DNA from: Methylobacterium sp. SyP6R
Lineage (GTDB): Bacteria > Pseudomonadota > Alphaproteobacteria > Rhizobiales > Beijerinckiaceae
Direction of reading: 5' to 3'
Assembly: GCF_019216885.1 (NCBI RefSeq)
Contig: NZ_JAAQRC020000002.1
Location: 124,001 to 188,000, forward strand
Length of the DNA stretch: 64,000 nt
The position numbers and the translations under genes are program-made. The notes beneath the pieces are model-generated. The model worked only from the letters and a program-made list of their open reading frames with translations, did not search any database and was not told the origin of the DNA. How positions within the stretch are numbered: position 1 is the first letter of the stretch; every line of letters begins with the position of its first letter. Below are positions 43,932-61,655 of the stretch, piece by piece.

Positions 43932-46900
43932 ACTCCACGGGACACGACCCGGGGGAGCCACCTTCTGGTACCGCCCGTCGACCTGAAGCGCGGGTCGATC
44001 CCCGCGGATGCGGGGGAGCCGGGGGAGGGGCGAAGGAATCCCTTGATCTGCGGGGTCGATCCCCACGGATGCGGGGGAGCCCCCCCTGCGGTGTTCGTGG
44101 CCCTCGGCTGCCAGGGTCGATCCCCGCGGATGCGGGGGAGCCCGCTCGCAGGCAGCCGGCATCGCCGGTCGGCTGGGTCGATCCCCGCGGATGCGGGGGA
44201 GCCTGCATGCTCTGGGTCGGCGCGCTCAACGCCTCGGGTCGATCCCCGCGGATGCGGGGGAGCCCTTGGCCCCATGGCCGCCGTACCGCAGTGCCACGGT
44301 CGATCCCCGCGGATGCGGGGGAGCCCGTACCAGGTGCCGCCGACCTCGGGATTCTTCTGGTCGATCCCCGCGGATGCGGGGGAGCCAAGGACACGGGGCT
44401 GGGCGCAGTGGTCGAGCGGGGTCGATCCCCGCGGATGCGGGGGAGCCGTCGCGGTGGTCTGGGATCCGGGTGTCGGTCGGGGTCGATCCCCGCGGATGCG
44501 GGGGAGCCACGGCAGACAACAGAGGATGATCGGCCGGAGGAGGTCGATCCCCGCGGATGCGGGGGAGCCCCGATCAACGGGCAGAGCACGGTGGGCCTGC
44601 GGGGTCGATCCCCGCGGATGCGGGGGAGCCAGCGATTTACTGCTCAAACCTTATCGACTTTACGGTCGATCCCCGCGGATGCGGGGGAGCCGAGCGTCCG
44701 ATGGTGTCGGGCGACCTGGCGCCGGGTCGATCCCCGCGGATGCGGGGGAGCCAATGCCGGCGGTGCGCCATGGCTAAGCGCCACGGGTCGATCCCCGCGG
44801 ATGCGGGGGAGCCGCCCTGGAATGGGACTGGAATATTTTCGGCCGGGGTCGATCCCCGCGGATGCGGGGGAGCCGGGCTCATCATCACGCCAGAGGGGCG
44901 CATTCCGGGTCGATCCCCGCGGATGCGGGGGAGCCTCGACGCGCAGGCCGAAGTGGGCGAGCACCCGGGGTCGATCCCCGCGGATGCGGGGGAGCCAGGT
45001 TTCTGTCGCCGTTTCTGTCGCCGAACCTGGGTCGATCCCCGCGGATGCGGGGGAGCCTCGAGGGGGGTGTGGGTGTCGTCGGACATGGGGGGTCGATCCC
45101 CGCGGATGCGGGGGAGCCCCCAGGCGCTCCTCTGGCCCTACGTGCGGGCGGGGTCGATCCCCGCGGATGCAGGGGAGCCGCGAGAAGCTGCGCATCTCAC
45201 GCCTCCCGCTGGGGTCGATCCCCGCGGATGCGGGGGAGCCGGCCAGGAAGCCTTGGCGATGGCGGGCAAGAGGGGTCGATCCCCGCGGATGCGGGGGAGC
45301 CAGCCAGCGCACCTACTGGGACGGCCTGCGCCGGGGTCGATCCCCGCGGATGCGGGGGAGCCGGCCGACGGGCGCGGGTCGAGGGTGGGGCGGAGGGTCG
45401 ATCCCCGCGGATGCGGGGGAGCCCGGACGGTCGTCTCGGCGACGTCGAGCACCGGGGGTCGATCCCCGCGGATGCGGGGGAGCCCCACTCGCGTCGCGTG
45501 CCAGCGTCGTTCGCCAGGGTCGATCCCCGCGGATGCGGGGGAGCCGCCTGCGTCAGGAAGCCGTCGAAGGCGAGCGCGGGTCGATCCCCGCGGATGCGGG
45601 GGAGCCGCGCAGGGCAGCCAGGGCGGTGTCGTCGACAAGGGTCGATCCCCGCGGATGCGGGGGAGCCACGCCAAGCGCCGGGGCGACCTTCGGGCCGAGG
45701 GGTCGATCCCCGCGGATGCGGGGGAGCCCGCTACCGCGTCTCGGGCGGCGCGATCACCTGGGGTCGATCCCCGCGGATGCGGGGGAGCCCGCCACCTGAT
45801 GTGCGGCGAGCTGCGCGAGGAAGGTCGATCCCCGCGGATGCGGGGGAGCCGCGGCCTGGATCGTGTTCATGGTGGTGTCCTGGGGTCGATCCCCGCGGAT
45901 GCGGGGGAGCCGCCTCGGTCTCGACGCCGACGAGGAACGTCCCGGGTCGATCCCCGCGGATGCGGGGGAGCCGGCCGCGACGGCAGCGAAACCTACTCGG
46001 CGAAAGGTCGATCCCCGCGGATGCGGGGGAGCCTCCGGTCGAACGACGCGTCCGCCGCCGCCGTGAGGTCGATCCCCGCGGATGCGGGGGAGCCAGCGCC
46101 GACAAGCTCGGGAACGGACTCGACCAGGGTCGATCCCCGCGGATGCGGGGGAGCCAACCCGGCCGCCTCAAGGCGCGCCGCGGTCACGGGTCGATCCCCG
46201 CGGATGCGGGGGAGCCGGGCCGCTTCCCTGGGGATCGCTTCAGGCAGCGGGTCGATCCCCGCGGATGCGGGGGAGCCGTCGGAAAGCGCTCGCTATCTGC
46301 CTCCGGCAGGGGTCGATCCCCGCGGATGCGGGGGAGCCACTTTGCGCTCCACGTCGAGGCGCCGCGCACCGGGTCGATCCCCGCGGATGCGGGGGAGCCC
46401 GGTCGCGCCTCTCGAAGCCGTCGGTCGGGTCGGGTCGATCCCCGCGGATGCGGGGGAGCCTCGACCGCCGTTCCGATATAGAAGCGACTACCGGGTCGAT
46501 CCCCGCGGATGCGGGGGAGCCAGCAGCATGACGATGCGACCTCGCAAGAGACGGGGTCGATCCCCGCGGATGCGGGGGAGCCGGGATCTGGAACGGCTCG
46601 CTCTACGGCGTGCGGGGTCGATCCCCGCGGATGCGGGGGAGCCGCCTGAGACGCCGGGTGGATCGGACCTATCCCGGGTCGATCCCCGCGGATGCGGGGG
46701 AGCCGCTACGCGGGTCATTGTGCCCAGCAGCGATGCGGGTCGATCCCCGCGGATGCGGGGGAGCCCATTCCGCGGCCTCCCGTCGGCTAGCCGCCTCGGG
46801 TCGATCCCCGCGGATGCGGGGGAGCCTCGGCCTTGCGCTCTTCCTCGGGTCAAGCAACGGGTCGATCCCCGCGGATGCGGGGGAGCCCCAACGTGCAACG

Positions 46901-47253
46901 TGCCGGTGAACGCGATGCTGGGTCGATCCCCGCGGATGCGGGGGAGCCGATCGCCGATTTCGCCCCGGGCACCCAGGCGCAGGTCGATCCCCGCGGATGC
47001 GGGGGAGCCTTCGAATTCTGAGTGCGGCACTGTGGGTACGTGGGTCGATCCCCGCGGATGCGGGGGAGCCGGGGTGCGGGCTATGGCTATCGTCAACGCG
47101 GCGGGTCGATCCCCGCGGATGCGGGGGAGCCGATATCGTGATCCAGAGCCCGACTGGGTCGGCGGGTCGATCCCCGCGGATGCGGGGGAGCCGCGTCGCC
47201 CGCGTTCGGATCGTCGTGGGTGAGGGGTCGATCCCCGCGGATGCGGGGGAGCC
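43932..47253 (-). CRISPR. type I-E CRISPR array, 54 repeats plus one decayed repeat
   Basis: Full repeats of 28 bp run from 43993 to 47253 with a constant 61-bp period (28 + 33), giving 53 spacers. Transcribed on the minus strand, each repeat has stem CCCCGC/GCGGGG with loop ATCC and ends in the handle GATCGACC. The leader end is at 47253, next to cas2. Variants are one base in the repeat at 44054 (second from the distal end) and one in the repeat at 45152. A decayed repeat at 43932-43959 keeps the last ten plus-strand bases CGGGGGAGCC and sits exactly in register. Long open frames through the array are artefacts of the 61-bp periodicity. Confidence 0.99.
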
Positions 47254-47263
47254 TCTGCCAGTC

Positions 47264-47291
47264 AATATACTGACATCATTCACTTATCAAA
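47264..47291 (-). promoter_or_regulatory. candidate pre-crRNA promoter in a very short leader
   Basis: On the minus strand TTTGAT (47286-47291) and TATATT (47264-47269) are 16 bp apart and read into the first repeat, which begins 11 bp beyond the -10. The -35 element lies inside the end of cas2, which stops at 47280. Only 26 bp separate the cas2 stop from the array, so the leader must overlap cas2. An inverted GTCA-N6-TGAC (47261-47274) surrounds the -10. Confidence 0.55.
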
Positions 47292-47627
47292 GAGCCCGCC
47301 TCCTGAACGAGGGGGTATCCCCGCTCCGCGGCCCAGCGGGCGGCGGGTGAGAAGGACGCCCTCATGGGCGATCACCTCCTTGGGCGGCGAACCGAGCGTG
47401 CGAACGCCGAGCGCGCCTGCCGCGGCGTTGTCCGCCCAGGTCATCACGATGCTGCCACGGCCGAGCTGGCCGTACCAGTCCGACAGCACGGTCCAGACAC
47501 GATCGCGCACGCCCGCGCTCATGCGCGGGTAAGCGTAGACGCCGGGGGCCAGCTCCAGCATGGCGGATCCGAGGAAGCCCCGGTAGCGATCCTCGACATC
47601 GCGGGTGACAACCACGCAGAGCGGCAT
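47280..47627 (-). CDS. cas2: Cas2e, CRISPR adaptation protein
   Basis: This 115-aa Cas2 of the type I-E class has the starting strand MPLCVVVTRDVEDRYRGFLG, then ELAPGVYAYPRMSAGVRDRV, GRGSIVMTWADNAAAGALGV and LGSPPKEVIAHEGVLL. Two Cas2 dimers scaffold with Cas1 to insert spacers. It lies 19 bp after cas1, and its 3' end carries the array promoter -35 element. The last 15 residues (Gly/Arg-rich) are more variable. Confidence 0.95.
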   Translation of the reverse strand: MPLCVVVTRDVEDRYRGFLGSAMLELAPGVYAYPRMSAGVRDRVWTVLSDWYGQLGRGSIVMTWADNAAAGALGVRTLGSPPKEVIAHEGVLLTRRPLGRGAGIPPRSGGGLFDK

Positions 47628-47646
47628 GCCCCTCTCCTCGTCGCGT

Positions 47647-48576
47647 TCACGTCGGCTCGGGGTCGGTCGTCGAACCGACCTCTGCCTGGGGGGTGTCGTC
47701 CTGCTCCCGAGGCACCAGGACGGATTTGATCACATCGATCAGACCCGGGATGACCTCGCGCCGGCGAAACAGCTCGGCTGCCCGGCGGCGTACCAGCCGG
47801 TCGATGCTCTCCGGGCGCTTGGTCGCCTCCTTGGCCGCCCCGAAGGCGATGTCGAGGACGACGTCGTGGCGCCGCACGTCGGCAATGTCGAGGACGAAGC
47901 TCTGTCCGGAGTCTTCGTGGATGAAGCCGAGCTGGGGGATCGTGCCGGTGGCAGCAACGGCGATGGCGGCGGCGGCCTGCATCGTCACAGCCGCGTGGTT
48001 GAGGGCCTGGTTGGGCAGGTCCGCACTGTCCGGGTTCGCTCGATCATAGCGGCGTCCGCGCCAGGGCACGCCGAAGCGCTCGGCGGCCAGCTCATAGGCC
48101 CGCTTGATGCGTCCACCCTCCATGCCGCGCAGGACCGCGATGTCGCGGGTTCGCACGATCTCGCCGAAGCGCAGGGCGTACATCCGCCGCGCCACCTCCA
48201 TGCGCGTGGCCTTCACCGCCCAGAGCTCGACCTGGCGCCGAGCCAGGGCGGAGGTGTCCGGCAGGAGCGGCGGCGCCGTGTAGAGCCGCACGCCCCCCTC
48301 ACCGATGGCGCACAGGGCGCAGCCGTGGCGGGCGAGGAGTCGAAGGGCGTCGTGGGTCACCGAGGAGCCCGGGCCGAGCAGCACGGCCGAGACCGACTGA
48401 TGCGGGATCTGGTAGTCGCCCGGTGCGAGGGTCGCGCCGCCCTCCGGCCCGGCTCGAGTGACGAACCGCAGACAGCCATCCTCCACCTCCAGGCGGCCGC
48501 GGTCGAGCCAGAGGAGGCCGTGCCGGTCGCCGTGGGGGACGCGGGCCGTGTCGAGGCCGAGGCGGCCGAGGAGCAT
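47647..48576 (-). CDS. cas1: Cas1e, CRISPR integrase
   Basis: This 309-aa protein is the metal-dependent integrase of the adaptation complex. It reads LGLDTARVPHGDRHGLLWLD at the start and has the type I-E hallmark regions RKxG-free loop QIPHQSVSAVLLGPGSSVTH, PNQALNHAAVTMQAAAAIAV and the catalytic region PQLGFIHEDSGQSFVLDIAD with conserved His and Asp. Length is normal. It starts 4 bp after cas6e. Confidence 0.96.
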   Translation of the reverse strand: MLLGRLGLDTARVPHGDRHGLLWLDRGRLEVEDGCLRFVTRAGPEGGATLAPGDYQIPHQSVSAVLLGPGSSVTHDALRLLARHGCALCAIGEGGVRLYTAPPLLPDTSALARRQVELWAVKATRMEVARRMYALRFGEIVRTRDIAVLRGMEGGRIKRAYELAAERFGVPWRGRRYDRANPDSADLPNQALNHAAVTMQAAAAIAVAATGTIPQLGFIHEDSGQSFVLDIADVRRHDVVLDIAFGAAKEATKRPESIDRLVRRRAAELFRRREVIPGLIDVIKSVLVPREQDDTPQAEVGSTTDPEPT

Positions 48577-48580
48577 GGCG

Positions 48581-49411
48581 CTATCCTCCCGCCGGCCGCA
48601 GCAGCAGCATGCCGAAGCCGAACGCGCCGTGCCGCCCCACCCCGTGGCCCAGCAGGGCGGTGAAGGCTGCCGGATCGGCGATCGTCAGCACCCCGTCCAC
48701 CACGGTCTCCGGCCCGGCGAACCCCGGCCGGCGGCGAGATGTAATGTCCGGCGGGATGGATCGCACCGTGCGGATGCGCCGATGCGCCACCAGGCGGAAG
48801 GCGGAAAGACGCGCCGCCGAGCCCAGGCGCTGCTCCAGCCAGGCTTGGTAGATCGGTTCGCGCTCCAGTGGATCGTTCGCCTCGCTCCCGCCCGCCAGAT
48901 CGCGTTGCTCGAGCGCCGCCAGGAAGGCGTCCCGCTCGTGGCCGCCCTGGCGGTCCGCCGCCGACCGGGCGGCGGCGGCACGCGGACCGTAGCGCACCAC
49001 CGGCCGCATCCGCAGGGTAAAGCCGTAAGCGGCCCCCTCGGCAAAGGCGCGCGGCATCGCCTTTGTCTCGAACGGATGTGGAAAAATCGCCGCCAACGCG
49101 CTCTCGGCGTCGTCGTCCGCGCGCCAGTCCGCCTCCCAGTCCGGAGGGGGTTCAGGGCGCGCATCCGCACGGGGATCGGCCGCTCGCAGGGCGTCCTTGT
49201 CGTGGCTATAGCCGAGCAGCATGTCGGGTCCGCCGTCGCGGCCTGGCATCAGGCGCCAGGGCTGAGGGGCCGCCGCCCCGAAGCGCCGCCGCAGGGCGAG
49301 ATGCAGCGCGTAGCCGAGATCGTCGTCGAGGACACCGTGATGCGCCGCGAAGGTCCGCAACGCTGTAGGCGCAACGGCGGTCCGCACGAGGTGCAAGAGC
49401 GGACCGCTCAC
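48581..49411 (-). CDS. cas6e: Cas6e, crRNA-processing endoribonuclease
   Basis: This 276-aa protein is a two-ferredoxin-fold endonuclease that cuts the pre-crRNA at the 3' base of the repeat hairpin. It contains ALRTFAAHHGVLDDDLGYAL near the N-terminus (candidate catalytic His), KAMPRAFAEGAAYGFTLRMR mid-protein, and the Gly-rich loop GHGVGRHGAFGFGMLLLRP at the end. GTG start overlaps the cas5 stop (GTGA). The substrates here are the array repeat and, by inference, the repeat-like hairpins between cas3 and cas8e. Confidence 0.95.
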   Translation of the reverse strand: MSGPLLHLVRTAVAPTALRTFAAHHGVLDDDLGYALHLALRRRFGAAAPQPWRLMPGRDGGPDMLLGYSHDKDALRAADPRADARPEPPPDWEADWRADDDAESALAAIFPHPFETKAMPRAFAEGAAYGFTLRMRPVVRYGPRAAAARSAADRQGGHERDAFLAALEQRDLAGGSEANDPLEREPIYQAWLEQRLGSAARLSAFRLVAHRRIRTVRSIPPDITSRRRPGFAGPETVVDGVLTIADPAAFTALLGHGVGRHGAFGFGMLLLRPAGG

Positions 49412-50217
49412 GGGGTTTCTCCGTGAGCGCGCGCCGGAAGGCACAGCTGGCCCTCGATCACCCCGCGCGAGCCGCCATGCACGCCCACCACCCAGTCGCG
49501 CTCGTCGCAAATGTCCCGGCGGCGCTCACGCTCCTCTGGCTCCTGGTCGGCCGGCCCGCGGTTGGCTGGCCATTGGGCGCGCACCCGACGCTCGGAGCGG
49601 GGCCAACCGTCAGGCGTCTGCCGAAGGCGTGAGGGATGGAGGCGAAAGCGCTCCTTGCCCGCCGCGCACGCAGCGAGGGCAAGGTCGAGGGCGGTGCGGA
49701 TGTCGTTCGATGCGATGCGCCCGGCCACGAGCGGCCGCGACGGCAGGCAGGGCTTTCGCCCGATAAAGAGCGGCCGCTCCGGCCGGCCGAGGGCGCCCTC
49801 GATCTCCGCCAGGGTCGGACTTTCCTCGGGCGGATCGAGGTGGAAGGCGACCAGCACCAGCGCATCGGCATCGGCATCGCGGTAGCGGATATGGGGCGAG
49901 TCGTAGGTCGCCGCCCCGCCGCTGCGGCCCTCGACGCGGCCTCGCGTGGTCCAGCCCCGGTCGCCGGCGCCGAGGCGGGCGGTCTGGAAGTCGCGCACCC
50001 GCCGGCCCTCCGCCACCCGGGCGGAGCCCAGGACGAGGCGGGCTTGCAGCCGGTCGAGCAGGGCACCGTCGGCCCGGTCGTAGCCCAGCGCGTTGGCGAG
50101 GAGCCCGGTGACCGTCGAACGACCGGGGAAGTCGCGCACGACCCCGTAGGCGTCGATGATGTCGCCGCCGAAGGCGCAGAGGGGCGCGTCGAGGAGGAGG
50201 ACGAGGTGGTCCGGCAC
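49408..50217 (-). CDS. cas5: Cas5e, Cascade subunit binding the crRNA 5' handle
   Basis: This 269-aa protein begins VPDHLVLLLDAPLCAFGGDI with the Cas5e hallmark, followed by FPGRSTVTGLLANALGYDRA, RVRDFQTARLG and FIGRKPCLPSRPLVAGRI. Cas5e caps the crRNA 5' handle. GTG start is 5 bp after the cas7 stop. The C-terminal 70 residues are Arg/Glu-rich and more variable. Confidence 0.95.
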   Translation of the reverse strand: MPDHLVLLLDAPLCAFGGDIIDAYGVVRDFPGRSTVTGLLANALGYDRADGALLDRLQARLVLGSARVAEGRRVRDFQTARLGAGDRGWTTRGRVEGRSGGAATYDSPHIRYRDADADALVLVAFHLDPPEESPTLAEIEGALGRPERPLFIGRKPCLPSRPLVAGRIASNDIRTALDLALAACAAGKERFRLHPSRLRQTPDGWPRSERRVRAQWPANRGPADQEPEERERRRDICDERDWVVGVHGGSRGVIEGQLCLPARAHGETP

Positions 50218-50222
50218 GGCTG

Positions 50223-51437
50223 CTACCCCACGATCAGCGCCCGGCGCACCATGGCGCCGGCACGGGTGGCGAGGTCGGGCAGGGTCAGCGCGTCGATGCC
50301 GGACAGCCGCGCCGCGCCGCGAGCGGCCTGCATCCGGGTCTCGTGCAGGCCGAACATCCCGTCGAGCCCCTCGATCTCCCGCTCGATCGCCCGGGCGGTC
50401 TCGCGGGCCAGGGTCGCGCCGGCCTCCAGCGCCTGGCGGTTCCGGGGCGGCTGGACGGGATCGCGGAAGGCGTTGGCCAGCGTGCGCGGCTGGCGTTCGC
50501 CGGCCTCGACCAGCACGAGGTCGGCATAGGCGTAGGGCGCCGTCGAGCCCCGCTTGGCCCCGGGGCTGACGGTGGCGACGAGGTGGACCAGGTTCTCGAT
50601 CACGCGGGCCGCGAGGTCGCGCGCCTCCGGGTCGAGGCCGGCCCAGGCCTTGCGCGGGCACCCGGTCAGGTTCGAGACCAGGAGCGGCGCGTCGACGACG
50701 ACATATCCATAATAGAGGCCCGAGGTCAGCTCGGTATCGAAGACGCCGGCCGCACCCGCATCCTCGCGCTCGGCGAGGTCGTCGACCACGGTGAAATAGT
50801 CGAGCTCGGGCTGCTCGTCATGGACCGTGAAGGCGTGGGCGACGTGGATGGCAGCGTCGGTGTTGGCACGGACGTCGGAGGTCACCATGCGGCCGAACAG
50901 GGCGCTCTCGAGACCCGGGGCGAGGTGGTTCTGCTCGCGCAGCTGCTTGAGGTTCGCCTTCCCGTCGCCGTCCTTGAAGAAGGCCTGTGCGGCGGCCTCC
51001 GCGGCCTTGGCGTCCTCCGCCTCCCGGGCGATGCGGGCGGCGTTCTCGGCGAGATAGGCGAGTTCGGGGCGGCCGAGCAGCAGCGCCTGGCGGGACTTCT
51101 TGTCGCCGGCCTTGCCGCCGTAGACCTTCTCCACGAAGACCTTCTCGATGGCGTCCACCACCGCCTTGTCGGCCCGGTCGCGCAGCGGATCCGTCACCTC
51201 CTGTTCGATCGCGACCTTGGAGCGCTCGGCCTCGAGGCCGACCTCCTCGGCGAGCCGGTGCAGGCCGCGGGAATCCTCGGTCATGCGCCAGTGGCGCTTC
51301 AGGCATTGCGACGAGATCCGCGTGCGGGTGGCGCCGCCGAACGGCAGGCGCTTGGCGAGCCCCGCATCGTCGCGGTTGAGGAGCACGCCCGGATAGGAGG
51401 CCAGGAAGTGGATCTGGATGAAGCGGGGAGTGGTCAC
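50223..51437 (-). CDS. cas7: Cas7e, Cascade backbone subunit
   Basis: This 404-aa protein coats the crRNA spacer in six copies. It has the family motif IQIHFLASYPGVLLNRDDAG, then KRLPFGGATRTRISSQCLKR, then ALFGRMVTSDVRANTDAAIH and TELTSGLYYGYVVVDAPLLV. GTG start overlaps cse2 (GTGA). Length is slightly above the usual 360, owing to a charged insert (about 125-170). Confidence 0.96.
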   Translation of the reverse strand: MTTPRFIQIHFLASYPGVLLNRDDAGLAKRLPFGGATRTRISSQCLKRHWRMTEDSRGLHRLAEEVGLEAERSKVAIEQEVTDPLRDRADKAVVDAIEKVFVEKVYGGKAGDKKSRQALLLGRPELAYLAENAARIAREAEDAKAAEAAAQAFFKDGDGKANLKQLREQNHLAPGLESALFGRMVTSDVRANTDAAIHVAHAFTVHDEQPELDYFTVVDDLAEREDAGAAGVFDTELTSGLYYGYVVVDAPLLVSNLTGCPRKAWAGLDPEARDLAARVIENLVHLVATVSPGAKRGSTAPYAYADLVLVEAGERQPRTLANAFRDPVQPPRNRQALEAGATLARETARAIEREIEGLDGMFGLHETRMQAARGAARLSGIDALTLPDLATRAGAMVRRALIVG

Positions 51438-52087
51438 GCTCGAGCGTCCTCGTCGATCTCGTCGGTATCGCGGTCGTTGCCTGCTTCCGCAGCGTAGTAG
51501 GCGCGGGCGAGCGCGAGGCGGGCCTCGTCGGCCCGCGTCTCGTCCAAGCCCTCGCTCAGGATCAGGTGCGCGAGGGGCGTGAGGTCGAGGGGGATTGCAC
51601 CGGCAGCGGCCAGGAACCGGCCGATTCGGGCGATCTGGGCGACGAGCGCGGGCCCCCGGGCGGTGGTGAGCCGCATCAGTCGCGTCTCCGACACGCCGGC
51701 GGCGTGGATCCTGCGTCCGGCCTCGCGCTCGCGGTGCCGCGGGCCCGTCATCTGTCCGTCGGCCCCGTGCTCCCGCACCGGCGCGTGGACCTCACGCGCC
51801 GCGGTGCCGGCCAGGGTCGCGACCAGGTGGCAGATCAGCGCCCAGCGGCGAAAGCCCTCGTCGGAGGCGAAGGCGCGCCGGTTCACGCCGGCCGCGATCA
51901 GGAGCGGGATCACCGCATCGACGCCGCGGCCGGGGGCCGCCGGATCCAGGCGCCGCAGCGTCGCCCGGGTCCCGGTCGGCAGACCCGGCATCCGGCCGGA
52001 GATCGACCGCAGCTGCGCGGAGAGCGAGGGCGCCCGCCGTGCCGTCCGCTCGCCCGCCTCGGTCATCGGTTCGGCCTCACCCGGCAT
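51434..52087 (-). CDS. cse2: Cse2 (Cas11e), Cascade small subunit
   Basis: This 217-aa all-helical protein forms a dimer in the belly of Cascade. It has the type feature GTRATLRRLDPAAPGRGVDA and, in the C-terminal half, ETRLMRLTTARGPALVAQIA and LAHLILSEGLDETRADEARL. It overlaps cas8e by 11 bp and cas7 by 4 bp. ATG 52066 is an alternative start. Confidence 0.94.
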   Translation of the reverse strand: MPGEAEPMTEAGERTARRAPSLSAQLRSISGRMPGLPTGTRATLRRLDPAAPGRGVDAVIPLLIAAGVNRRAFASDEGFRRWALICHLVATLAGTAAREVHAPVREHGADGQMTGPRHREREAGRRIHAAGVSETRLMRLTTARGPALVAQIARIGRFLAAAGAIPLDLTPLAHLILSEGLDETRADEARLALARAYYAAEAGNDRDTDEIDEDARA

Positions 52088-53645
52088 CCTTCACCTCCGC
52101 CACGAACGCGCCGGCCCGGCGCTCGAACAGGTCCGAGGCCTGGGCCCGGGCCCGGATGCGCCGCACCTCGGTGCGCGGCGCCGCCTCGGCGGCCTCGGCG
52201 AGGACCGCGCGGGCGAGGCCCGCGAGCCGCCCCCGCCAGGGCGTCCGATGCGGCCCGTCCCGCTCCGCCACCTCGTTCCAGAAGGCGTCGTCGAAGAAGC
52301 CCGCCTCGACGCGGCCGTCGTAGGTCGCCTGCCAGGACGCGGCCTTGCGCTGGGCCGCCTCGTCGTCGAGCCGCACGCCGTCGCGTCCGCCGCGCATCAG
52401 CGCCAGGAGTGCGTGGCGCAGGATGCGCCCCAGCTCCCCGGCCTCGTCGGCGCGCTCCTGCGCGACCTTGCCGGTGCGGTCGAGGATCACGTCGCCACGC
52501 TGTTTCAGCAGGGCACCGACGAAGCCCGGTACCGGCAGGTGACGCTCGTGGAAGCCCTCGGTCTTGCCCTGGCCGCGGACCACGGCGCTGATCGTGATCG
52601 CGAGGCCGGTGCCCGGCATGCCCGGGGTCGGGGTGGCGAGCACCGGCCGCACGACGATGTCGGTGTTCATCAGCCGGGCGATCTGCCGGTAGCCGAACCC
52701 GGCTCCGGTCGGCGTGTAGGCCTTCTCGCCGTCCTTCAGCACCGGCGCCCACGGATCCCCGGTCCGCCCGGTGAGCGCCTTCGCCTCGATCCGGGCCGCC
52801 TTCGAGCCGGCGGTGCGAGCGATGAGGCGATCGCCCTCCCGCACCAGCCGCATGCGCCGGCACACCTCGACGTAGAGCGGATCGAGCCCCGCGAAGCCCA
52901 GCGAGGCCTGCCCGTCCCACGGAGCGAGCCAGACGAGGCCCAACCCGTCGCGGGCGGCGAGCGCCGGCTGTTTCGCCAGGATCCGGTCGCGCCCTCCGGC
53001 GAGGAGCTGGCCGACATCGTGCCGGAAGGCGGCGCCGGGACTGCCCTGCGGGCGTAGCCCGAAGGTCGTGCGGCTGCCGAAACCGCCGTTCATCCGGCTG
53101 ATGCCGAAATTTCCGGCACCCATGAAGCCCTCCTGGGTCTGGAGGCTGACCAGGGCGAAGAGCCAGTGGTCGTCCGCGGCGTCCCGCATCCGCTCGGCCT
53201 TCAGGTCGTGGTTCTTGGCCGTGACCAGCATGTCGAGGCCGTCGGGCGCCTCGATCCGCCCCCGGTACTCCGCGGCGTTCGCAGGTCGGACCACCGGCGG
53301 CTGGAGCAGGGCCGGCTTGCTCCAATCCTCGACCACGAGGTCCCAGGCCTCGCCATCCGGCCAGTCCGGAGTGAGGGCGAGGAGCAGCCGGCGCCACGCC
53401 TCCCCGGTCTCCGGCAGCGTCGTCGCACCGGCACGATGCAAGGCCATCGCCGCGACCTGGACCAGGAAGGCGTGCCAGGCTTGGCGCTGGTGCGGGCGCA
53501 AGGCCGGGAAGGCGGCGACGGCGTCGGTGCTCAGGGCGGCCAGGATGTCGAACAGGTCGCCTGTTCTCGTCTGACTGGATCGATCGCAGTACCGGATATC
53601 CATACGAGAAGCCCGTTTGACCATCCTGATCGAAGCGATATTCAC
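52077..53645 (-). CDS. cas8e: Cas8e (Cse1), Cascade large subunit
   Basis: This protein of up to 522 aa recognises the PAM and recruits Cas3. Family signatures are ALRPHQRQAWHAFLVQVAAM, WDLVVEDWSKPALLQPPVV, TAKNHDLKAERM, SLQTQEGFMGAGNFGISRMN and AWLAPWDG-like VWLAPWDGQASLGFAGLDPL. The usual DPWLPV motif near the N-terminus is not present; the start reads MDIRYCDRSSQTRTGDLFDI from ATG 53603. GTG 53645 and ATG 53624 are alternatives; none has a strong ribosome site. A promoter-like pair lies at 53689-53716. Confidence 0.93.
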   Translation of the reverse strand: MNIASIRMVKRASRMDIRYCDRSSQTRTGDLFDILAALSTDAVAAFPALRPHQRQAWHAFLVQVAAMALHRAGATTLPETGEAWRRLLLALTPDWPDGEAWDLVVEDWSKPALLQPPVVRPANAAEYRGRIEAPDGLDMLVTAKNHDLKAERMRDAADDHWLFALVSLQTQEGFMGAGNFGISRMNGGFGSRTTFGLRPQGSPGAAFRHDVGQLLAGGRDRILAKQPALAARDGLGLVWLAPWDGQASLGFAGLDPLYVEVCRRMRLVREGDRLIARTAGSKAARIEAKALTGRTGDPWAPVLKDGEKAYTPTGAGFGYRQIARLMNTDIVVRPVLATPTPGMPGTGLAITISAVVRGQGKTEGFHERHLPVPGFVGALLKQRGDVILDRTGKVAQERADEAGELGRILRHALLALMRGGRDGVRLDDEAAQRKAASWQATYDGRVEAGFFDDAFWNEVAERDGPHRTPWRGRLAGLARAVLAEAAEAAPRTEVRRIRARAQASDLFERRAGAFVAEVKDAG

Positions 53646-53688
53646 CGGCGTCTCTGGATCACGCAGAATGCGCCAGGATTGAAACTGG

Positions 53689-53716
53689 AGAATATCGCTT
53701 CTGTTAAGGCGGTCAA
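53689..53716 (-). promoter_or_regulatory. candidate Cascade operon promoter
   Basis: On the minus strand TTGACC (53711-53716) and TATTCT (53689-53694) are 16 bp apart, with a start site expected about 40 bp before the GTG of cas8e. This gives the Cascade genes a promoter separate from that of cas3, downstream of the crRNA-like element. Confidence 0.5.
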
Positions 53717-53781
53717 CCGAACTTTTGGTTGTCGACTTGTCGAAGTTTTGATTTCAAGCTCAGATCGCTTCTTCGATATCT

Positions 53782-53870
53782 ATTTTATCCCCGCGAGTGC
53801 GGGGGAACAACCCGCATGACGGCGGCGGCCACCATCCAGCGTGGTCGATCCTCTTTGAGAGAGGGAACAG
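53782..53870 (-). ncRNA. solitary crRNA-like unit (repeat-like, 33-nt spacer, repeat-like)
   Basis: On the minus strand the first repeat-like element (53843-53870) ends in GATCGACC, identical to the array's crRNA handle, and can pair CCTCT with AGAGG around CTCAA. A 33-nt spacer follows (53810-53842; starts ACGCTGGATGG). The second element (53782-53809) has the array's own stem CCCCGC/GCGGGG with loop ACTC but ends ATAAAAT instead of the handle. The period is 61 bp, exactly that of the array. The elements match the array repeat at about 16 and 20 of 28 positions. The layout equals the psi-repeat/spacer/psi-repeat of CreA-type RNAs. It sits between cas3 and cas8e, 66 bp upstream of the Cascade promoter-like site. 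Targets are not identified. Confidence 0.75.
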
Positions 53871-53872
53871 GT

Positions 53873-53895
53873 CGGGGCAGAACGACTCTGCCCCG
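53873..53895. terminator. 9-bp hairpin between the DUF1508 gene and the crRNA-like unit
   Basis: CGGGGCAGA (53873-53881) pairs with TCTGCCCCG (53887-53895) around ACGAC. It lies 5 bp after the stop of the DUF1508 gene and 2 bp before the first repeat-like element. There is no U-run on either strand, so it may be a processing or insulating hairpin rather than a true terminator. A second perfect stem, GTCACA/TGTGAC (53900-53915), overlaps the DUF1508 stop codon. Confidence 0.5.
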
Positions 53896-53900
53896 CGAAG

Positions 53901-54074
53901 TCACACGGTTGTGACAAGCGCGTCCGAGGATGATTTGCTCAGAAGGATCGAGTAATCGCAATCGCGCTCTGACATATAGGTCTCACGCGATATCGATATG
54001 ATGCGGCCATTGTCGGCGCGAAGGCGCCATCGCCAAGCCTTGCGCCCGGAAACGGCATATTTCTCGTATTTCAT
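53901..54074 (-). CDS. 57-aa DUF1508 (YegP-like) protein within the cas operon
   Basis: This frame reads MKYEKYAVSGRKAWRWRLRA, then DNGRIISISRETYMSERDCD, and a short tail ending VTTV. It matches one DUF1508/YegP module (typical form YE-..-G-WRWRLKA-NG-II--S--Y-S). ATG 54072-54074 has GAGG about nine bases upstream, and TGA is at 53901-53903. Codon use (TAT, ATA, TCA, CTT) is less GC-biased than in the flanking cas genes, which suggests transfer. It ends 30 bp before the crRNA-like unit, in the position that a CreT gene holds in CreTA modules. The function of DUF1508 is not known to me, and a toxin role is only a hypothesis. Confidence 0.72.
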   Translation of the reverse strand: MKYEKYAVSGRKAWRWRLRADNGRIISISRETYMSERDCDYSILLSKSSSDALVTTV

Positions 54075-54177
54075 CAGCGATACCTCGTACGGGCTCGGCT
54101 TGACGAAAGACGCAGAAGATCTACAAGTGCCATGTCAACTGACACCCGATCTCGCGGTCCTCAGCCGCTATCGGACC

Positions 54178-54218
54178 AAAGCCCGGAGACTTCCTAGGGT
54201 CTCCGGGCTTCGTCTTTC
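54178..54218. terminator. 12-bp stem-loop terminator between cas3 and the DUF1508 gene
   Basis: AAGCCCGGAGAC (54179-54190) pairs perfectly with GTCTCCGGGCTT (54199-54210) around an 8-nt loop. It is followed by CGTCTTTCC on the plus strand and TTTGG on the minus strand. It probably ends the cas3 transcript, separating cas3 from the downstream module. Confidence 0.7.
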
Positions 54219-54330
54219 CAGGACAATCCGCCCAAGAGTCGATCCACGCGCAAGCGCGAATTGGCGGCTGTGCCACGCTCGGTTCGAGCAGCTTGCAGCA
54301 GCACCATTCAGCGGTTTGAGCCATCATGCT
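54219..54330. other. cas3 3' untranslated stretch
   Basis: No gene is seen. A 68-codon minus-strand frame (54121-54327) crosses the terminator stem and is not credible. A TTGACA hexamer on the minus strand at 54133-54138, beyond the terminator, could be the -35 of the DUF1508 gene, but no good -10 follows. Confidence 0.35.
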
Positions 54331-56904
54331 TCAAACCACCCGCAACCCGAGCCGATCGTACCGAAACTCGACCGTGCCCAACGTGAACCTCACGCCCTCG
54401 GCGCCCGCCTCCTCGCGGACCGCGACGGTCGCGTCGTCGGGGATCGGCCGGGCCTTCGTCAGCATCCATCCCGGGATGCGCAGCTGCGTGACCACTACCC
54501 CGAACGGGCCGACGAACGGCACCTCCGGCCGGATCAGCCGGTCGTCGGCGCCGAGCCGGGTGCGCACCGTTTCGTCCTCGGGAAACGACAGGTCCGTGAA
54601 GGTAGCCGCCATGTCGAGCCGATGGTGAGCGGCGAGGGCCATATCGGCGACACGGCCGCCCTCCTGGCGGGTCGCATGGTCGAGCCAGGCGCCGCCCTTC
54701 TGCGCCGCGACCGCGTCGAGCGCCTCCGGATGGGTCGTCAGCTCGACGAGCCGGCGGCAATCGCACGGGACGACGATCCAGGCGTGCTCCTCCAGCAGGC
54801 GCCACGTGGCCTCGATCACCGCCAGCCGGGGATAGATCCCGCGTCCCTCCTTGAACGGCCCTAGCCCGTTCCGGGCGCGGTCGAGCAGGGGCGAGAGGTC
54901 GCGCGCCTCCGGCACCAGCACGATGGCCCGCACCGTCTCGAAGCCGGCCGGTCGGTCGCGCCGGTGTCGATGCAGGCGGCCGAAGCGCTGGAGCAGCACA
55001 TCCATCGGCGCGAGATCGGTGATCAGAAGATCCGCATCCAGATCCAGGCTCATCTCGAGCGTCGTCGTCCCGACCGCGACGATCGGCCGGCGCTCGCGGC
55101 CGCGGCGCTCCCCGGGTACCTGATCGCCGTCCACCTTGCCGAATAACGCCTCGATCTCGGTGTCGAGCAGACGCCGGTCCTCGGCGGCGAAGCGGCCGTG
55201 ATGCAGGGTCGCGACGCTCCCGACCCGGAACAGCAGGTTGCCGGCGTCCTCGGCTTCGAGCGCCTGCTGCACCGCCACCGCGTCGGCGACCGTGTTACGG
55301 ACGACCAGCACCGCGGCGCCCGCGCGGGCGGCGGCGAGGGCCCGGATGGCGATTTCCCTCGGGTGCGCGATGAGCGGCGCGGTTTCGATCGCGATTTCCT
55401 TGCGCCGGCCGCCGGTCGTCACCTTCCTGGGCGCTGCGTCTGAGCCCGAGAGTGCCGGGTAGGGCGTCTCAAGGGCCTGTGCGAGGCTCGGCGCCTCCCG
55501 GCCGAGGAGGGCCGCACGCGCCGCGCTGCCGAGGGTGGCCGAGAGGAGCATCACCCGGCCGCCGGCCGCAACATGGTTCCCGATGACGGTCTTCAGGATT
55601 TCGGTCTGGAACGTGTCCGACGCATGGACCTCATCCACCACGAGCAGTAAACGCGGCAGAGCGGCGGCGCGCAGGTGAGCGTGCTTGACCTGCAGGCCCG
55701 CCATCAGCGCTTGATCGATGGTTCCGACGGCGATGCGGGCGGCGAGGTAGCGCTTGGGTGCCTCAGCCGCCCACCGTGCGTCGTTGTCCTCCTCGTCGGG
55801 CCACAGCACCGTGAAGGGTGCGAGCCGCTGCCCGTCCTCGTCGCCGGCGCGCAGGTAGCCCGGCACCGCGAGCACTGCCCGAGGGGCATCGGCGCCGTAG
55901 ATGCGGGCGAGGTGGCGGTTGATCCGCCCGTGCAGCTGCGTCGCTGCGGTGCGGGTCGGGACAGCGAAGTACAGCCCGTCGACCTCGCCGCGGGCGATCA
56001 GCCCGAGGGCGCGCCACAGGGCCGCCTCGGTCTTGCCCGAACCGGTTTCGGCCTCGAGGGCAGAGATGGCGCCAAGCCATGCGGCGGCGGCCTTCTCCTG
56101 GGCCTCGTAGGGCGGAAAGCCGAACGCTGCTATAAAGGAGTCGGGCGCTGCGCGTGACAACGGGCGGAGACCCCGCACGGTGACGCCCAGAGCTGCTTGC
56201 CGTGCCGCAAACTGCGATCGTGACAGCTCGAACGGCGTCACGAGGGGAAAGTGCGCCGTGTCCGAACCGAGCCAGTCGGCCAAGGTCGTCAGGCCGGCGA
56301 GCAATGCCACGAAACGCGGGGCATCGGGCAAAGGTGGGCCCTCCACGAAGGCGAGCGGAAAGCGCAGGCGGGCAGCGGAGAGGAGCCGTGCCAACTCGGC
56401 GAGCGGATCGTAGCCGTCGATCGGGCGCCACCAGCCGGCATCACGCCGTGCCTCTCTGGTGCTGGATCCGCTCATGGCGCCTGGCGTGCTGAAACTCGCC
56501 AGCGGACGGCCGTGATGAGCCATGACGGCCGTGAAATGTTCGGCCGCCCCCCAAGCCGCGATAAGATCGCTTAGCTCCCGCACCACGGCTTGGTTACGGA
56601 GCGGTATGCTGTGGTGAAACAGGGCGCCGGCGACCTCGGTGTGGCCGATACGCGGCATCTTGGGAAATTGGCGCCGCCAGAAGCCGCTATTTGCTTTGCC
56701 AAAATCGTGCAGAAAGGCGAGTGTGCACAATCGCTTGATGTCTTGATCGGACAAGACGCGTCCGGCGAGGCCCTCGATCCTGCCTCGATAGGCGGTCTGC
56801 GTCAGCACAGCGCACAGGACAGCGGCGACGTCCTCACCGTGATCGATGAGAGCAAGCGTCGTTCCGAAATCGTCGCGCTTGGCCCAAGCGTGATTTTTAA
56901 TCAA
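54331..56904 (-). CDS. cas3: Cas3, HD nuclease-helicase of type I CRISPR
   Basis: This 857-aa protein has an HD nuclease domain (about 15-230; His66-Asp67 in FLHDFGKANSGF, AHHGRP further on). An SF2 helicase follows: Walker A ETGSGKT (286-292), DEVH box (424-427, VVDEVHASDT), motif III LLSATLG and motif VI LLQRFGRLHRH. A C-terminal domain ends the protein. It degrades the displaced strand after Cascade binds. TTG start (56902-56904) has AGGAGGG five bases upstream. The cas3 gene is separated from cas8e by 685 bp, which contains a DUF1508 gene and a crRNA-like unit. Confidence 0.96.
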   Translation of the reverse strand: MIKNHAWAKRDDFGTTLALIDHGEDVAAVLCAVLTQTAYRGRIEGLAGRVLSDQDIKRLCTLAFLHDFGKANSGFWRRQFPKMPRIGHTEVAGALFHHSIPLRNQAVVRELSDLIAAWGAAEHFTAVMAHHGRPLASFSTPGAMSGSSTREARRDAGWWRPIDGYDPLAELARLLSAARLRFPLAFVEGPPLPDAPRFVALLAGLTTLADWLGSDTAHFPLVTPFELSRSQFAARQAALGVTVRGLRPLSRAAPDSFIAAFGFPPYEAQEKAAAAWLGAISALEAETGSGKTEAALWRALGLIARGEVDGLYFAVPTRTAATQLHGRINRHLARIYGADAPRAVLAVPGYLRAGDEDGQRLAPFTVLWPDEEDNDARWAAEAPKRYLAARIAVGTIDQALMAGLQVKHAHLRAAALPRLLLVVDEVHASDTFQTEILKTVIGNHVAAGGRVMLLSATLGSAARAALLGREAPSLAQALETPYPALSGSDAAPRKVTTGGRRKEIAIETAPLIAHPREIAIRALAAARAGAAVLVVRNTVADAVAVQQALEAEDAGNLLFRVGSVATLHHGRFAAEDRRLLDTEIEALFGKVDGDQVPGERRGRERRPIVAVGTTTLEMSLDLDADLLITDLAPMDVLLQRFGRLHRHRRDRPAGFETVRAIVLVPEARDLSPLLDRARNGLGPFKEGRGIYPRLAVIEATWRLLEEHAWIVVPCDCRRLVELTTHPEALDAVAAQKGGAWLDHATRQEGGRVADMALAAHHRLDMAATFTDLSFPEDETVRTRLGADDRLIRPEVPFVGPFGVVVTQLRIPGWMLTKARPIPDDATVAVREEAGAEGVRFTLGTVEFRYDRLGLRVV

Positions 56905-58661: not shown

Positions 58662-59177
58662 TTAACCACCTTGATTTCCATACCCTTGATATGCCTCTAG
58701 TCCTTGGAAAGCACCAGGATCGTTAATACCATATCCTGGATCGCTCGGCAAGAAAGTATTGTTTCCAGGCACGGTACTGGGATAGAAGCTCCCATATCCA
58801 AAATTCGTCCCTGTTTCGCGAAAATTGCCTGAGTCATAGCTTTGATAAAGAGCAGCAGCTCCTGAAAAGAAAAAAGATCTGAGTTTATCACCGATAGACC
58901 CTGAAGATCCCAATCCTGCGTCAATCAAATTTGCAAGAAAATTCGAAAATACTTGATTGTTAAATGGGAGGTTTCCGGGATCATTTGACGGTTCTGGAGA
59001 AAAAGAACCGTTCCCGAACCCCATGGGAGTGCCACTGAAAAGCGCAGCAATATCAGCTTGTGAGGGCGGCCCGAATGAACCAGCAGGTTCGAAAGTTTGA
59101 TTTTGACCACCCATTGGCTGAGAATTGAATAAGTTTTGTATATCCTGTCGAGGAATATCAATTACTTCAAGTCTCAT
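58662..59177 (-). CDS. Gly/Asn/Ser-rich hypothetical protein with internal duplication, candidate secreted substrate
   Basis: This 171-aa protein has no signal peptide and no membrane helix. Residues about 11-39 and 41-68 are similar: QDIQNLFNSQPMGGQNQTFE and ADIAALFSGTPMGFGNGSFS, sharing DI..LF...PMG..N..F. The C-terminal part is rich in Gly, Tyr, Pro and Asn (YGSFYPSTVPGNNTFLPSDP), ending GYGNQGG. TAGGAAAT precedes the ATG. It is divergently placed to a type I secretion ABC transporter gene, so an exported peptide or protein is a reasonable guess. No family is recognised. Confidence 0.65.
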   Translation of the reverse strand: MRLEVIDIPRQDIQNLFNSQPMGGQNQTFEPAGSFGPPSQADIAALFSGTPMGFGNGSFSPEPSNDPGNLPFNNQVFSNFLANLIDAGLGSSGSIGDKLRSFFFSGAAALYQSYDSGNFRETGTNFGYGSFYPSTVPGNNTFLPSDPGYGINDPGAFQGLEAYQGYGNQGG

Positions 59178-59480
59178 ATTTCCTAAAGCAGACCATTCGG
59201 GTCGGAAGAACTCATCTCTTTCCCACTTGTCTTCGATCCAAATTGTACTTCTCCGATCTATTTAAAGCATGACTATGAAATTACTAAATTTTATTCATGT
59301 CAATAGTTTTATCTATATATAAAAAGGTCTAGATATAACAAACTATATAAAAATGTTAGATCTAATCAATTAAATTAGATAATTGAATGTTGTATTTATT
59401 TATATATATATGTATATATTACGGAAAATATTGTAGTAAAAATAAAAGATATATAAAATATAAAACACAGGGAGGTTTTA

Positions 59481-61655
59481 TTGATAGTGCAAGACCAAGC
59501 CAACGTGTCAGTAGCAGTACCTGATACAGGCCTCGGTGCGCTGGCCCTCGTCGCCTCGTTCCATCAGATCCCGTGCGAGCCGGCCCAGGTCCGCCATGAT
59601 CTCGGCTTCGGCCAGACCGTGATGAGCGCCACCGACATCGTCCGCGGTGCCCGCCGGCTCGGCCTCAAGGGCCGCCTGCTCCAGAACCAGAAGCCGGCCC
59701 GCCTCGACGGCATCCCGCTCCCGGCGATCCTGGAGGTCGAGGACGGGCGCTTCGTCGTCCTCGGCCGCCGCTTCGAGGACGGCAAGCTCCGCATCATCGA
59801 TCCGGTCGCCCGCACCGCCGACCACGTCGAGGCCGAGGCCTTCTTAGCCCGCTGGACCGGCACTATCGTGCTCGTGGCGCGCCGAGCCAACCTCCAGACC
59901 GCGCTCCACCATTTCGGCCTGTCCTGGTTCGTCCCGTCGATCTGGCGCTACCGCAAGCCGCTCGCCACCGTGCTCGTCGCCTCGCTGTTCATTCAGCTCT
60001 GCGCCCTCATCACCCCGATCTTCTTCCAGATCACCATCGACAAGGTGCTGGTCCACCGCGGCTACTCGACCCTGACGCTCGTCGCGGTCGGCCTCGTGGT
60101 GCTCGGCCTGTTCCACGTCGTGCTGCAATACTTGCGCGGCTATATCCTCACCCATACCGCGAGCCGGATCGACGTCGAGCTCGGCGCGCGGCTGTTCGAC
60201 CACCTGATGCGCCTGCCGCTCGGCTATTTCGAGACCAGGCCCGCCGGCCAGACCGTCGCGCGGGTGCGCGAGCTGGAGACGGTGCGCAACTTCCTCACCG
60301 GCCAGGCGCTCACCTCGGCGATCGACGTACCGTTCACGTTGATCTTCCTCGCCATCCTCTACTTCTACTCGCCGCTCTTGGCGCTGATCGTCACCCTGTC
60401 GATCCCGTGCTACATCCTGGTGGCGGTGCTGCTGCGGCCGATCCTGCGCAACAAGACCCTGGAGCAGTTCAACCGCTCGGCTCTGTCGAGCCAGTTCCTG
60501 ATCGAGTCGGTGGTCGGCATCCACACCGTCAAGGCGCTGGCCGTCGAGCCGACTCTCAAGAGCCAGTGGGAGGAGCGGCTCGCCGCCTACGTCAAGACCT
60601 CGTTCGTCGCCGGCCTCATCGCCAGCATCGGCCAGAACACGATCCAGTACATCTCGAAGGTCACTGCTGCGCTTGTGCTGTTCTTCGGCGCCTACGCGGT
60701 GATGAACGGCGAGTTGACCGTCGGCAGCCTGATCGCCTTCAACATGATCATGGGGCAGGTGACCGCCCCGATCCTGCGCCTGTCCCAGCTCTGGCAGGAC
60801 TTCCAGCAGGTCAAGGTGTCGCTGGAGCGCCTCGCCGACGTGCTCAACTGCCCGCCGGAGACCCGGGCGCTCGCCCAGGCCCACCTGCCGCCGGCCAAGG
60901 GCCAGGTCACGGTGCGGGGCGTGTCGTTCCGCTACCAGCCCGGCACCCCGGAGGTCCTGAAGGACGTCAGCCTCGACATCCCGGCAGGCCAGGTCATCGG
61001 CATCGTCGGCCCGTCGGGCTCAGGCAAGTCGACCTTCACCAAGCTCCTGCAGCGCCTCTACGTGTCGGAGAAGGGCCAGGTGCTGGTCGACGGCGTCGAC
61101 ATCGCCCAGGTCGATCCGGCCTGGCTGCGGCGCCAGATCGGCGTCGTGCTCCAGGAGAACCTCCTGTTCAACAAGACGGTGTTCGTGAACATCGCGCTCG
61201 CCAATCCCGGCCTGTCGCGGGCGCAGGTGATGCAGGTGGCCCGTCTCGCCGGCGCCGACGAGTTCATCAACCGGCTGCCGCTCGGCTACGACACGCCGAT
61301 CGAGGAGCGCGGCGCCAATCTCTCGGGCGGCCAGCGCCAGCGGCTCGCCATCGCGCGGGCGCTCGTCACCAACCCGCGGATCCTGATCCTGGACGAGGCG
61401 ACCTCGGCCCTCGACTACGAGAGCGAGCGGATCATCCAGGAGAACATGAAGCACATCGTGCGCGGGCGGACCGTCATCATCATCGCCCATCGCCTCGCGG
61501 CGGTGCGGATCTGCGACCGGATCATCGCCGTGCAGGAGGGGCGCATCGTCGAGGACGGCACCCACCGCGAGCTGGTCGAGCGGCCGGCCTCGCTCTACGG
61601 CCGCCTCTGGCGCCTGCAATCCGACCACGGCACAAGCCAGGGAGAGGCCGCGTGA
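59481..61655 (+). CDS. type I secretion ABC transporter with degenerate C39 domain (HlyB-like)
   Basis: This 724-aa protein has an N-terminal C39-like domain (about 10-135; TGLGALALVASFHQIPCEPA) that lacks the catalytic Cys/His pattern, so it is a docking domain as in HlyB. Six helices (about 155-430) precede an NBD with Walker A GPSGSGKST (about 510), signature LSGGQRQRLAIARAL, Walker B ILILDEATSALD and H-loop IIAHRLAAVR. GGGAGG lies six bases before the TTG start; GTG 59487 is an alternative. Its first bases are AT-rich and the rest GC-rich. Confidence 0.93.
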   Translation: MIVQDQANVSVAVPDTGLGALALVASFHQIPCEPAQVRHDLGFGQTVMSATDIVRGARRLGLKGRLLQNQKPARLDGIPLPAILEVEDGRFVVLGRRFEDGKLRIIDPVARTADHVEAEAFLARWTGTIVLVARRANLQTALHHFGLSWFVPSIWRYRKPLATVLVASLFIQLCALITPIFFQITIDKVLVHRGYSTLTLVAVGLVVLGLFHVVLQYLRGYILTHTASRIDVELGARLFDHLMRLPLGYFETRPAGQTVARVRELETVRNFLTGQALTSAIDVPFTLIFLAILYFYSPLLALIVTLSIPCYILVAVLLRPILRNKTLEQFNRSALSSQFLIESVVGIHTVKALAVEPTLKSQWEERLAAYVKTSFVAGLIASIGQNTIQYISKVTAALVLFFGAYAVMNGELTVGSLIAFNMIMGQVTAPILRLSQLWQDFQQVKVSLERLADVLNCPPETRALAQAHLPPAKGQVTVRGVSFRYQPGTPEVLKDVSLDIPAGQVIGIVGPSGSGKSTFTKLLQRLYVSEKGQVLVDGVDIAQVDPAWLRRQIGVVLQENLLFNKTVFVNIALANPGLSRAQVMQVARLAGADEFINRLPLGYDTPIEERGANLSGGQRQRLAIARALVTNPRILILDEATSALDYESERIIQENMKHIVRGRTVIIIAHRLAAVRICDRIIAVQEGRIVEDGTHRELVERPASLYGRLWRLQSDHGTSQGEAA

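Follow-up and report, generated by a model that had tools for sequence, protein, structure and literature searches.

Does the solitary crRNA-like unit that lies between cas3 and cas8e in this Methylobacterium genome still serve as a guide gene, or is it what remains of a mini-array? We approached this question within the window, the whole 64,000-nt stretch of DNA analysed here, and in related genomes. The preliminary description had proposed a CreA- or CreR-type role for the unit, and this reading was supported by a local target matching in seed and PAM, by homologues free of random decay and by the lack of a full phage match. We favour a creA-type guide gene over a decayed mini-array as the reading of this unit, and refer to it as creA below.

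A degenerate repeat-spacer unit inside a type I-E locus

The surrounding locus is of type I-E, with cas3 (54331..56904), a diverged cas8e (Cse1; 52077..53603), a block of cse2, cas7, cas5, cas6e, cas1e and cas2e (47280..52087) and a CRISPR array of 54 units of 61 nt (43960..47253), all on the minus strand. The cas8e product matched TIGR02547 at E=3.5e-13, which is below the cut-off, and had no Pfam match, and the cas6e product scored below the NCBIfam cut-off and above the Pfam cut-off. Before cas8e, the promoter scan listed a site of the form TTGACC-16-TATTCT (53689..53716, minus strand). Among the five Methylobacterium genomes that carry the module, such a TTGAC-type site was present in three (the window genome G000, G032 and G062) and absent from G012 and G068. 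An imperfect 43-nt inverted repeat at 53604-53729 surrounds the promoter-like site, in a stretch that is likewise absent from G012 and G068. Elsewhere in the window, at 58662-63163, a 171-aa Gly/Pro-rich ORF with internal repeats lies beside a peptidase-C39 ABC exporter and a membrane-fusion-like ORF, which together look like a secreted peptide system.

Two repeat-like elements around a 33-nt spacer had been described between cas3 and cas8e, and both this position and the exact coordinates (53870-53782, minus strand) were reproduced. The stems of the two elements lie 61 nt apart, so that the claimed register with the 54-unit array also held, 61 nt being the period of that array. Comparison with the array repeat bore out the different fates ascribed to the two elements: the upstream psiR1 (53843..53870, minus strand) is a degenerate repeat that shares 16/28 nt with the array repeat and has an intact handle, ATCGACC (7/7), with a short, rebuilt stem of 5 bp, and the downstream psiR2 (53782..53809, minus strand) shares 20/28 nt and keeps the array-like 6-bp stem with the handle lost (3/7). 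The stem and handle of psiR1 were kept, with small changes, in five of five relatives. Degenerate repeats around one spacer, outside the array and inside a cas locus, with the 5' handle retained in psiR1 and the Cas6 stem but not the handle retained in psiR2, are the form of a CreA; they are not the near-identical repeats of an ordinary mini-array.

The spacer, psiS (53810..53842, minus strand), starts at the position where a C follows most array repeats, and the 32-nt guide begins at 53841. Its sequence is self-complementary (-18.2 kcal/mol), a stability equalled by one of the 54 array spacers, and the seed is hidden in the hairpin, which was kept in five genomes (-12.1 to -18.2 kcal/mol) without compensatory changes. 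Another hairpin (53874..53894, minus strand) lies between psiR1 and the preceding gene, which encodes a DUF1508 protein.

By shape alone, the unit is only mildly unusual. Scanning the 64 kb for a handle of at least 6/7, a stem of at least 5 and a second stem of at least 6 at +61 returned 53 array units, the creA-like unit and one other place (43463), and the same scan gave five matches in 40 shuffles, by two-base blocks, of the window minus the array. It is position, conservation and target, not shape, that set the unit above chance.

A full match of the spacer to a phage, which would have marked the unit as an old mini-array, was not found, the best phage match being 25 nt at 92% (E=0.09), and psiS had no full-length match in the host either. 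Searches against plasmids gave 29 records up to E=1, and none among the best 20 of the 29 fell below E=0.07. In six viral contigs the first 18 nt of psiS recur, with identity at 20-24 of 32 positions overall, and none of these sites lies behind AAC. No convincing phage, plasmid or viral-contig source of psiS emerged from these searches.

A PAM-flanked partner downstream of cas3

According to the accessible parts of two reports (PMC8501985, PMC9458426), CreTA guides pair with their targets at seed positions 1-5 and 7-11 with positions 6 and 12 free, and the handle is kept in psiR1 and lost in psiR2. The preliminary description had suggested aligning the spacer to local sequence under the every-sixth-base mismatch rule, and this alignment was positive: on the minus strand, a protospacer at 54313-54282 (feature 54282..54313) matched the guide at positions 1-5 and 7-12 and was mismatched at position 6, with AAC (54314..54316) as its PAM. 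The seed occupies 54313-54303, and the site, 17 nt beyond the stop codon of cas3, precedes the DUF1508 gene and falls outside any promoter listed by the consensus scan of the window. The seed of the guide, at positions 1-5 and 7-11, is thus paired with a PAM-flanked local site and the pairing as a whole is partial, as for CreA.

We took AAC as the PAM because of one weak phage match, the C that directly follows 45 of 53 array repeats, and the targets themselves. The phage match came from a search with the whole array, in which two related phages matched the same spacer (54) at 88% over 34 nt (E=0.3 each), with AAC at both sites. Searching the whole array against plasmids returned 68 records; those at the top were long matches, at 65-70%, to GC-rich or CRISPR DNA, and these results were not used for the PAM.

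Besides psiS, this site was the sole full ten-position seed match on both strands of 20 kb in G000, G012 and G062, and G068 has a seed site at the same place past cas3. The combination of AAC, seed and position 12 occurred once per genome in G000 (7.5 Mb), G012, G062 and G068, always past cas3. Positions 4-5 covary in guide and target, the TG form being found in G000 alone and the CA form in G012, G062 and G068 alone; reversed-sequence controls of these TG and CA searches gave two matches in G032 and none in the other genomes. With equal base use assumed, the chance of finding PAM plus seed in an interval of this kind is about 2 in 100,000. Against a single target stands an extra match in G000: the bare seed, with position 12 free, occurs there at 12 places including psiS and the target, and one of the others (C3:166214) lies behind an AAA PAM, without clear promoter context. 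In G032 the bare seed occurs at 14 places including psiS, none of them behind AAN.

The stretch from the unit to DUF1508 was found in 5 of 111 genus genomes (G000, G012, G032, G062 and G068), and the order cas3, DUF1508, creA, cas8e was kept in all five. Identity between the window and G032 was 77/80 in creA, 254/300 at the cas3 3' end, 259/300 at the cas8e 5' end and 130/184 after psiR2. For the window and G012 the values were 125/174 in DUF1508 and 68/80 in creA, with flanks at 277/300 and 280/300, so the module is more diverged here than its flanks and therefore has a history of its own. Random decay of the repeat-like elements in homologous loci, which had been named as evidence against a CreA/CreR role, was not seen when the same interval was compared. 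G032 has lost the target together with the promoter P1 and the leader described below, and has kept creA and an intact DUF1508 gene that lies 16 nt after cas3. In G062 (L018, ~9175-9635), an insertion of ~0.45 kb with inverted ends GAGCCTGTTTG and CAAACAGGCTC lies between psiR2 and cas8e and looks like a MITE.

A profile of this Cas8e recovered nine of the 111 genus genomes, namely the five with the DUF1508 module and four at ~46% identity (L035-L038). All nine carry a comparable unit, and eight carry a seed target in the same interval, behind AAC (seven) or AAA (one), each of these PAM-plus-seed targets being unique genome-wide in its own genome. Position 6 was mismatched in six of the eight, as Cascade pairing predicts. 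Class-wide, this Cas8e was found in 5/385 genomes, our own included, and no unit was seen by eye beside the Cas8e relatives of Sphingomonas and Croceibacterium (L023-L025). Five genus genomes carry a PF09481-type I-E system instead, four of them with an array within ~0.6 kb upstream of cas8e, and these loci were left out of the nine-locus count. One of the PF09481-type loci (L009, in G080) has a solitary degenerate unit at ~1250-1350 in the cas sense, upstream of cas8e, and a site behind its psiR2 resembles the spacer, with mismatches at seed positions 1 and 5. Upstream of a related cas8e, L027 (G400) carries at ~1115-1200 a hairpin that resembles the repeat, with ATGGACC as its handle and another stem ~22 nt on; this may possibly be a short-guide unit.

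In the four sister loci L035-L038, the unit again lies between cas3 and cas8e and runs opposite to the cas genes. Each has a local seed site behind AAC (three) or AAA (one), mismatched at position 6 in all four, and the reversed control gave two matches in G132 and none in other genomes. These units were first spotted by eye, and the rule was then scripted, taking as criterion the handle found in the window's repeat. The script returned exactly one AAN-flanked pair in eight of the nine intervals and none in 146 control windows, which were half-overlapping and mostly coding, drawn from the window and five 20-kb loci, and which held 41 chance seed pairs in 33 windows. A plain rule of degenerate unit, seed (1-5/7-11), PAM and same interval thus finds a partner in 8/9 loci and 0/146 controls, and is therefore fit for wide scanning; CreTA modules are described as hard to find, both partners being small and poorly conserved (PMC8501985, accessible text).

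The sister loci fall into two arrangements. In L035 and L037 the target protospacer is followed at 0-1 nt by a hexamer (TTGACC or TTGACA), and this in turn by a 68-aa ORF and then creA. The ORF has a dN/dS of 0.29, is unrelated to DUF1508, and gave neither a homologue nor a Pfam match in our searches. In both loci psiR2 comes 6 nt earlier than the array period, and 6 nt is one Cas7 step. In the other two, L036 and L038, a TTGA hexamer that lies immediately before cas8e follows the target at 0-1 nt; we saw no small ORF between target and cas8e, and the arrangement looks CreR-like. The promoters beside these targets were read by eye, and not one of the four appears in the consensus scan.

What the guide would repress

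Downstream of the target in the window lies P1 (54225..54253, minus strand), the candidate promoter of the repressed unit, with the -35 element TTGCGC. The gap from target to P1 is 28, 27, 27 and 27 nt in the four genomes with P1, although the intervening sequence differs. Three observations speak against repression at P1: its -10 element is poor in the window (CGGATT), the consensus scan lists it in one genome of the four (G068 alone, TTGACC-16-TATGAT), and the protospacer ends 27-28 nt from the -35 in the window group as against 0-1 nt in the sister loci. Past P1, a leader hairpin with compensatory changes in four sequences (54178..54211) folds on either strand, and the leader contains no conserved mini-ORF with a Shine-Dalgarno sequence (SD) and no Rfam match. 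On the opposite strand, the alignment revealed a conserved promoter-like site, P2 (54100..54127, plus strand), which the formal scan lists in G012 alone. Together, site and hairpin (54100-54211) could possibly give an antisense RNA to the DUF1508 leader.

The gene that follows (53901..54074, minus strand) encodes the 57-aa DUF1508 protein (PF07411). It has an SD-like stretch in the four genomes compared and dN/dS values of 0.08-0.29 (10 pairs from five genomes, several with saturated dS). Three word-sharing homologues were found, of which the two named ones are from Methylobacterium. The predicted structure is weak, with four strands, a mean pLDDT of 61.5 and a pTM of 0.30, and the nearest solved protein by sequence is UPF0339 protein NMB1088 (3bid, E=3.7e-4). 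We regard DUF1508 as the toxin candidate because it is the sole conserved ORF in this slot and because another ORF fills the slot elsewhere. A literature search, with most subscription journals outside its reach, found no toxic relative of DUF1508 and no link between DUF1508 and toxins. As far as the accessible records go, its sole match for DUF1508 with CRISPR concerns Mycoplasma hominis, and the matches listed for Methylobacterium with CreTA have unrelated titles.

We propose that creA would be transcribed into a crRNA-like RNA, which would be cut by Cas6e and loaded by Cascade, and that the resulting complex would bind a single site shortly after cas3, partly matched and flanked by AAC, and so repress the transcription unit that starts at P1. 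DUF1508, the sole conserved protein gene of that unit, might then be a toxin kept silent while Cascade works, and creA itself would lie inside the unit that it represses. Action of the guide through Cascade at the site past cas3 is very probable, and, irrespective of what DUF1508 itself does, repression of its transcription unit by the guide appears reasonably probable. That DUF1508 is the toxin has in our view somewhat less than an even chance; the main fact against it, and one that is hard on this reading, is G032, in which DUF1508 follows cas3 without a target.

The same loss in G032, of exactly target, P1 and leader with DUF1508 and creA kept, favours a CreTA in which the toxic product would be the structured leader, or an opposite-strand RNA, with DUF1508 as an accessory. 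The conserved leader hairpin with its compensatory changes and the conserved P2 point the same way, and known CreT toxins are often RNAs (PMC9458426 and PMC10097628, in their accessible parts). We nevertheless consider an RNA toxin unlikely, if a serious contender, since the leader lacks a conserved mini-ORF with SD and an Rfam match, the compensatory counts come from four sequences, and both strands fold. A CreR-type autoregulator, in which the guide would repress the transcription that feeds the Cascade operon, spare Cascade would lower its own genes and DUF1508 would be a passenger, is a rather unlikely account of the window. It fits the shared direction of target, creA and cas8e, the placement of the targets in L036 and L038, directly before cas8e and without an intervening small ORF, and the gap of only a few nt between psiR2 and cas8e in G012 and G068, where P1 or read-through from cas3 must therefore feed cas8e. 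It sits poorly with the other promoter-like site before cas8e in G000, G032 and G062, with L035 and L037, whose guides and targets point away from the cas genes, and with selection on DUF1508 in all five genomes. In G012 and G068, cas8e begins 7 nt downstream of the stem of psiR2, and its sole SD-like stretch, GGGGA, lies inside that stem, so CreA excision might cost cas8e translation.

That the unit is a functionless decayed mini-array or stray self-targeting spacer is scarcely credible. Its repeats are degenerate and its shape is not rare in shuffled sequence, but between G000 and G032 creA has changed less than the sequence on either side, guide and target covary, the same logic recurs in 8/9 loci and in none of the 146 controls, and host and phage sequences hold no full-length match. 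Returning to the DUF1508 toxin, we tentatively, and with considerable doubt, put forward a CRISPR-addiction module with a DUF1508 (YegP/UPF0339) toxin and a co-directional order of target, promoter, toxin and creA, belonging to a genus series in which one Cas8e lineage has creA with DUF1508, creA with the 68-aa ORF (guide 6 nt shorter) or creA aimed at cas8e, so that CreTA and CreR forms would trade places. Should the toxin indeed be DUF1508, this would give a role to a family whose function is unknown. The nine loci also make testable how a self-regulating guide becomes an addiction guide.

Relation to known systems

This kind of module is already known, and our literature search found no DUF1508 in such a module. 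The comparisons that follow refer to the accessible text of the cited reports. The CreTA of Citrobacter rodentium (PMC12055562) resembles the window in being type I-E, in occupying the cas3-casA gap with psi-repeats and a psi-spacer, and in having a PAM-flanked site with a partial seed match beside a small ORF, whose translation is needed for toxicity there. It differs in that its creA lies on the strand opposite the toxin, whereas all parts are co-directional in the window; its target overlaps an UP element and has the PAM ATG, not AAC; and its ORF, of 96 bp, is described as without homologues, where the window has a DUF1508 ORF as candidate toxin.

With the type I-B CreTA modules of Haloarcula hispanica and Halobacterium hubeiense, the window shares the seed rule, the handle pattern and a psiR1 more diverged than psiR2 (PMC8501985, PMC9458426). 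The toxins of these archaeal modules, unlike a DUF1508 protein, are RNAs that sequester rare tRNAs, with no protein gene reported in the slot (PMC8501985, PMC9458426). The creTA promoter of H. hubeiense is autoregulated (PMC8501985, PMC9458426), and work on a type I-B archaeon shows that Cascade guided by short spacers can repress its target without cutting it (PMC10989794). The type I-F CreTA of Acinetobacter likewise has two psi-repeats around a psi-spacer in the gap between cas3 and the effector genes; unlike the window, its guide, of 20 nt, relies on long non-seed pairing at a site downstream of the promoter, and its toxin is an RNA with a mini-ORF (PMC10097628).

CreR is also a crRNA-like guide within the cas locus that acts on local transcription (PMC12737573), and L036 and L038 resemble it. 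The window differs from CreR in that the first gene behind the target is not a cas gene and that a separate promoter-like site stands before cas8e. CrePA differs in that CreP is typically a KilA-N protein (PMC12737573), to which DUF1508 is unrelated by name and family and for which it gave no Pfam match; a protein toxin under the control of CreA and Cascade would nonetheless be common to both.
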